NCBI GenBank assembly: GCA_029266415.1
Contig: JAQSWW010000030.1
Span: 1-41,859, forward strand
Length of the DNA: 41,859 bases
DNA from: Actinomycetospora sp.
Lineage (GTDB): Bacteria > Actinomycetota > Actinomycetes > Mycobacteriales > Pseudonocardiaceae
Direction of reading: 5' to 3'
Position 1 is the stretch's first letter; every line of letters begins with the position of its first letter. The translations under genes were made by a program, and so were the position numbers. The notes beneath the pieces are model-generated. The model did not search any database and was not told where the DNA came from. It was given only the letters and a program-made list of their open reading frames with translations. Below are positions 32,439 to 37,127 of the stretch, one piece after another.

Positions 32439-37127
<4,689 letters not shown>

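Follow-up and report, generated by a model that had tools for sequence, protein, structure and literature searches.

Mycobacterial interspersed repetitive units (MIRUs) are actinobacterial repeats, longer than the element considered here, which sit where genes adjoin, are oriented along translation and form tandem arrays. In Nostoc-type cyanobacteria, small dispersed repeats of about 21–27 nt are mobile; to our knowledge, neither a frame bias nor reinsertion at the same site has been described for them. REPs and REPINs are dispersed repeats of 20–40 bp, partly intragenic, and CGTC REPs have no dedicated transposase (PMC3733652). Rickettsia palindromic elements (RPEs, including the short RPE-4 and RPE-6) are in-frame repeats present in many unrelated genes (PMC10969869; PMC3733652).

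The repeat described below, of which two copies were first noticed in a 41,859-nt stretch of Actinomycetospora sp. DNA (contig JAQSWW010000030.1, hereafter the window), shares traits with each of these systems. Like RPEs, it enters many unrelated genes in frame, but the description of RPEs (palindromic and, per review, about 150 bp) sets them apart from an element of 36 bp that is actinobacterial and occurs in more than one genus; moreover, folding gives no stable counterpart of the RPE palindrome in its main sub-family, A. It has the size range and partly intragenic dispersal of REPs and REPINs as reported (PMC3733652); unlike REPs, it lies in genes at 128 of 195 sites. GTAG REPs bear a GTAG end tag and a stable palindromic stem, whereas the element ends in GGAG/GACC and sub-family A has no strong stem; CGTC REPs bear a terminal CGTC tag outside their stem, whereas the element contains CGTC only internally, on the reverse strand, and sub-family A is stemless. 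Set against MITEs, which have terminal inverted repeats and target-site duplications, the element shows only short complementary arms and a weak likeness between its flanks, with none visible by eye at ileS or at several recent insertion sites. It resembles MIRUs in its actinobacterial hosts, position at gene junctions, orientation along translation and tandem arrays, but is also found in gene interiors, unlike MIRUs as described; Nostoc-type repeats belong to another phylum. The nearest kind is that of short repeats entering genes in frame (such as RPEs and the transposase-less CGTC REPs), but we do not class the element as a member of those families. The literature searched, as far as its text was available, holds nothing on this sequence or repeat.

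Anatomy and distribution of the element

The two 29-nt stretches on which the preliminary description was based were found at positions 11333–11361 (minus strand, in cobH) and 35660–35688 (plus strand, in a P-type ATPase gene); they are identical at 27 of 29 nucleotides and read GDAAQRSST and GDAATRSST, respectively, in their own genes. They are genuine copies of a repeat, but 29 nt is not its full unit: alignment of the ATPase gene to an empty orthologue shows a gap of 36 nt (35661–35696, plus strand), composed of a conserved 27-nt part (35661–35687, of sub-family A, one core triplet being altered) and a 9-nt tail. The ATPase gene (32439–37127, plus strand, 1562 aa), delineated by its open reading frame and a domain scan, carries the insertion at aa 1075, between the matches to the E1-E2 ATPase (aa 762–948) and HAD hydrolase (aa 1143–1283) domains. 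The cobH gene (precorrin-8X methylmutase; 11316–12014, minus strand, 232 aa) carries an exact 27-nt sub-family A element (11334–11360, minus strand) near its 3′ end, past the CbiC domain (aa 20–214) and with 18 nt of the open reading frame left to follow. A third, weaker copy had been placed in the same frame in an SDR gene. It is a genuine relative, matched by pattern and now delimited at 1622–1648 (plus strand), but of the sister sub-family C (GGACG-core-CGGACC, one mismatch), and it does not share the frame of the other two: within its open reading frame (933–2384, plus strand; SDR domain at aa 185–392, by domain scan) it lies in frame 2 instead of 0, one base off register, and reads TDAQRSGAGP.

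A search of the source genome (G000; 4.73 Mb in 306 contigs, 84.5% complete) with the pattern GGAGACGNAGCGNAGCGGAGCTCGACC gave 73 copies at up to 3 mismatches, 50 forward and 23 reverse, as against no match for the reversed pattern, so that the repeat is by no means restricted to the copies first reported; 100 dinucleotide shuffles of the window gave no match either. Among 66 sub-family A copies of the source genome (GGAGACGNAGCGNAGCGGAGCTCGACC, collected at up to 3 mismatches with two N left free), 25 of 27 positions hold an identical base in 62–66 copies, and only N8 (G 34, C 21, A 7, T 4) and N13 (C 36, G 28, A 2) are free. The core CGNAGCGNAGCGGAGC is common to four sub-families, told apart by their arms, which are GGAGA/TCGACC in A, GGACA/TGGACC in B, GGACG/CGGACC in C and GCGGCA/TGCCGC in D (66, 8, 13 and 20 copies, respectively, among 107 classified). 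The 20 copies of sub-family D, some of them in a 45-nt tandem arrangement, have a 6-bp inverted repeat about the common core, mostly followed by GCCGGAGGC; those of the source genome are at loci L056, L070, L073–L075, L080, L081, L083 and L085–L089.

The arms covary. Both positions adjoining the core are complementary in 325 of 366 distinct core matches, counted over all loci fetched by then with A or G permitted at one core position, and the complementary pairs are GA/TC (277), CA/TG (34) and CG/CG (14); of the remaining 41 matches, many of which come from other genera, one is complementary. Arm types A, B and C are each found with the short core and also with a second, longer one that gives a whole element of about 45 nt; at two sites (cobH and L065) the source genome has the short core and genome G004 the long one, with the same arm type. 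The core is a series of GNA triplets framed by GC, and N8 and N13 are the middle bases of its first two triplets. Extraordinary stability is reported for DNA mini-hairpins that have GNA as their loop, whatever the N, and contain two or more G-C pairs (PMC4686876); the idea that such loops account for the freedom of N8 and N13 is suggestive only. A stable sub-family A hairpin finds no support in nearest-neighbour folding models, in which this sub-family folds no better than shuffled sequences (z of 0.52 and 0.73 as DNA, −0.41 and 0.00 as RNA); the long core folded as RNA does somewhat better than shuffles (z −2.47) and is the sole case to reach that value.

All 18 genomes of the window's genus carry the element, with 1–116 copies each, and none was found in 43 other genomes of the family or order (61 genomes in all, with no more than 1 mismatch allowed). 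Among the 80 matching stretches listed, of at least 113, the named hosts are Actinomycetospora, Williamsia and Mycobacterium pinniadriaticum. Together with these hits, an identity of 92–97% between several flanks from the source genome and an Actinomycetospora MAG (loci L105 and L126) points to Actinomycetospora as the window's genus. At up to 2 mismatches, we counted 22–55 copies in each of the seven Williamsia genomes tried, 135 in A. chiangmaiensis, 79 in A. termitidis and a single one in M. pinniadriaticum. A class-wide draw of 394 genomes returned three with a match, namely the source genome and two of one genus label with one perfect copy each; this genus is taken to be Mycobacterium because the ileS stretch of one of the two (L380) equals that of M. 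pinniadriaticum. Viral contigs, plasmids and phages gave no match to the element. The bare 16-nt core was discarded as a marker for other genera, since it matched in 77 of 298 genomes of the order but its reversed control also did so in many of these, up to 28 times in one genome. Other repeats that share the core were seen at apparent gene starts, for example gtgagcgcgaggagCGCAGCGCAGCGGAGCcccgcagtcgcgaacgaaagg (L219, L220, L223, L225, L228, L229 and L231, genus label g34).

The window also holds two other repeats. A 47-nt near-perfect palindrome with arms GTGAGCACTTTCCGCG and CGCGGAAAGTGCTCAC is present at 880–926 and 16815–16861, with a diverged third copy elsewhere in the source genome (L059, near position 6638); the stretches of the scan set (885 kb) and of genome G003 (800 kb) gave no match to its 15-nt arm word. 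A tandem repeat with an 18-bp period and several copies occupies 28127–28306.

Insertion at sites that are empty in relatives

The suggestion that the repeat is a mobile insertion is supported by orthologous loci. The ATPase site is filled in 3 of 17 aligned loci of the genus (G000, G004 and G008) and empty in 14, the 18th genome having no full-length match, so that sharing by descent is not found as a general cause. Among the 18 aligned cobH loci, three have the short element (G000, G010 and G011), one has the long form (G004), one has a separate copy nearby (G003), 12 are empty (of 17 that are readable) and one is unreadable. When 30 sites drawn at random from 77 of the source genome were sought in G004, 24 were found: 11 are filled in both genomes, 11 are empty in G004 and two are unclear. 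At the 11 empty ones, the insertion measures 36 nt in eight cases (once as 26+10), 38 nt in one, 38+1 nt in one and 30+12 nt in one; the element thus comprises 27 conserved nucleotides and about nine loosely conserved ones. Copies are single or form head-to-tail arrays, whose period is about 33–39 nt and, judged by eye, most commonly 36 nt, and copies within one array have a common spacer and common bases at N8 and N13. The flanks show a weak likeness in a test for target duplication, with shuffle z of 3.3–4.5 in the cross-genome scan set and 1.3–2.0 in the source genome set, and inspection by eye revealed no target-site duplication at the ileS sites or at several recent ones; the signs of a classical (9-bp) duplication are weak and inconsistent. 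Some empty sites already hold short matches such as GAGAC or GGGAG, as judged by eye.

The single mycobacterial copies (L103, L369 and L370) all lie at one codon of ileS, where they read ETERSGARP or ETQRSGARP. A 122-aa piece of IleS was matched in 57 of 60 genomes of that genus (G123 and G701 being gapless), and 55 of the 57 fall short of the carriers by exactly 36 nt. In an alignment of 32 ileS loci at the DNA level, four have the element (L380 being identical to L103), 25 show a 36-nt gap, two are cut short at this position and one is unmatched. The three carriers are not grouped in a tree of 31 loci read without support values: L369 is placed with L381 and L382 and L370 with L398, all three of them empty, and L103 with L389, whose genome is among those 36 nt shorter at ileS. 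The carrier genes are 81–84% identical to each other, while no difference separates their elements at the 25 fixed positions. On the simplest reading of these sequences, three mycobacterial lineages appear to have received independent in-frame insertions of 36 nt at one ileS codon; short gene conversion, or an old insertion followed by many losses, are possible alternatives.

Gene context, orientation and reading frame

Gene context was assessed with a home-made codon-usage gene finder, each array being counted once, on sites pooled from the source genome, 91 GC-rich loci of the cross-genome scan and G003, the Williamsia set being left out. The pool contained 215 sites, 14 of which were too close to an end, and removal of L103 (Mycobacterium), one exact duplicate and four near-orthologous repeats left 195; some shared insertions may remain and 30 of the 91 scan loci have no listed source, so that p-values derived from these sets are rough. 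Apart from the 128 sites in genes, 67 are intergenic; the G003 sample is about 91% coding. The coding sites comprise 103 sense and 25 antisense ones, and the sense copies are distributed over frames 0, 1 and 2 as 70, 13 and 20, frame 0 being the one that reads GDAxxRSST (before pruning: 106 sense, 28 antisense and frames 70/13/23). More than 60 nt inside genes, there are 45 sense and 11 antisense sites, and the frames of the sense copies farther than this from either gene end are 30/5/10 before pruning. Among intergenic copies, 57 of 67 point the same way as the gene that adjoins them at the 3′ side. Intergenic positions and the ends of genes are over-represented among the sites, with copies running along transcription; the distances from the element to the next start scatter over a broad range. 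In G003, a closed genome, orientation tracks the strand of the gene (41 sense versus 12 antisense copies). An orientation set by replication found no support (80 sites of G003, Fisher p 0.36, the replichores being tentatively assigned from a GC skew that is weak), and a frame bias due to insertion-site preference alone was rejected, because a weight matrix built from intergenic copies predicts 43, 42 and 16% for frames 0, 1 and 2.

The hosts of in-frame copies are CobH (in its tail), the P-type ATPase, an SDR, a FAD-binding oxidoreductase, the RsgA GTPase, a molybdopterin oxidoreductase, CofG, PheT and two DUF proteins, as identified by a domain scan of the three window genes and of 7 of the 11 other genes with an internal frame-0 copy. 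In-frame tolerance within unrelated proteins and concentration at gene ends, both anticipated by the preliminary description, are thus seen in domain scans and site counts. The further idea of a specifically coding element was too narrow: in-frame insertion is indeed tolerated, but about a third of the sites are intergenic, a fifth of the coding ones are antisense, and the three window copies have no common frame. Likewise, the same frame noted at the outset reflects a strong bias and not a rule, the SDR copy lying in a different frame. The biases of orientation and frame could result from selection, from target choice or from both, and antisense copies could add a pyrimidine-rich transcript, putatively favouring Rho-type termination.

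Origin of the element and its rivals

The element is dispersed, is inserted as a unit of defined length at sites that are empty in relatives, and is biased in orientation and frame. We consider it probable, at roughly 0.7, that it is a tiny, non-autonomous piece of mobile DNA, about 36 bp long, which is mobilised in trans and whose copies are filtered by selection, a reading drawn from sequence comparison. Copying would proceed via a single-stranded intermediate, the recognised feature being a core in which mini-hairpin motifs (GCGNAGC) overlap and which the arms close; because sub-family A folds no better than shuffles, this single-strand step is suggested by motif logic. Insertion would be carried out by an enzyme encoded elsewhere and other than a Y1 tyrosine transposase. 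The unit amounts to 12 codons and, provided that neither N8 nor N13 is T, its conserved part would be free of stops in all six frames; insertion into a gene would therefore usually add 12 residues and cause no frameshift. Selection would then retain the copies that are intergenic, terminal, in sense orientation or in frame 0, where they would encode the small polar peptide GDAxxRSST, and additional copies inside an array would arise by local tandem duplication.

A motif beneficial to the host, such as a protein-binding or mRNA-level signal selected at gene starts or ends in the sense direction, would agree with the sense bias that holds even between genes (57/67), the enrichment at gene ends, the near invariance of 25 of 27 positions and an orientation that in G003 follows the gene strand (41 versus 12) and not the replichore. 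Such a signal would not be expected at broadly spread distances from starts or within unrelated genes, nor in numbers that differ so widely between congeneric genomes (1–116 copies), and the ATPase, cobH and ileS copies are missing from most orthologues; we therefore find it unlikely. A motif spread by replication errors, through slippage or template switching at short matches and with no dedicated enzyme, seems improbable as well: it fits the common spacers and N8/N13 bases within arrays and the matches such as GAGAC and GGGAG that some empty sites hold beforehand (by eye), but accounts poorly for a defined 36-nt unit at unlinked loci, or for those mycobacterial genomes that hold one perfect copy and gave no second one that could have been its template.

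The element might instead be of a known REP/RAYT or MITE type whose transposase was overlooked, given that it is a short dispersed repeat, inter- and intragenic, with complementary arms that in sub-family D form a 6-bp inverted repeat. This has little probability, as there is no GTAG end, long terminal inverted repeat or consistent target duplication, and the Y1 HUH transposase domain (Y1_Tnp, PF01797), the sole mobiliser family searched, was found in 0 of 18 genomes of the genus and in 2 of 31 genomes searched, both of other genera, Williamsia lying outside this sample and the control being detected in 5 of 14 known genomes. Mobilisation by a RAYT within the genus was accordingly rejected, and the RAYT form of this alternative is largely refuted. 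Finally, descent, or chance likeness in GC-rich coding DNA, has next to no probability and is already refuted as a general explanation by the absence of any match to the full pattern in shuffled and reversed controls, the empty sites and the patchy taxonomy, even though 11 of 24 sites of the source genome found in G004 are filled there too.

Beyond the reading as a small element mobilised in trans, it is conceivable, although we hold this only tentatively, that the element represents a new class of ultra-small mobile DNA. It would be a modular 36-bp hairpin that freely combines complementary arm pairs with GNA mini-hairpin cores, would be recognised as single-stranded DNA by a putative non-Y1 machine, would pass between actinobacterial genera and would have entered one ileS codon independently in several mycobacterial lineages. 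Since genomes of a single genus hold anything from 1 to 116 copies, the mobiliser should be findable by comparison of gene contents. If the proposal holds, the element would rank with the smallest mobile units put forward for bacteria, adding similar 12-residue pieces to many proteins, including the essential PheT and the product of mycobacterial ileS, and such short in-frame insertions would bear on the origin of indels in conserved enzymes.
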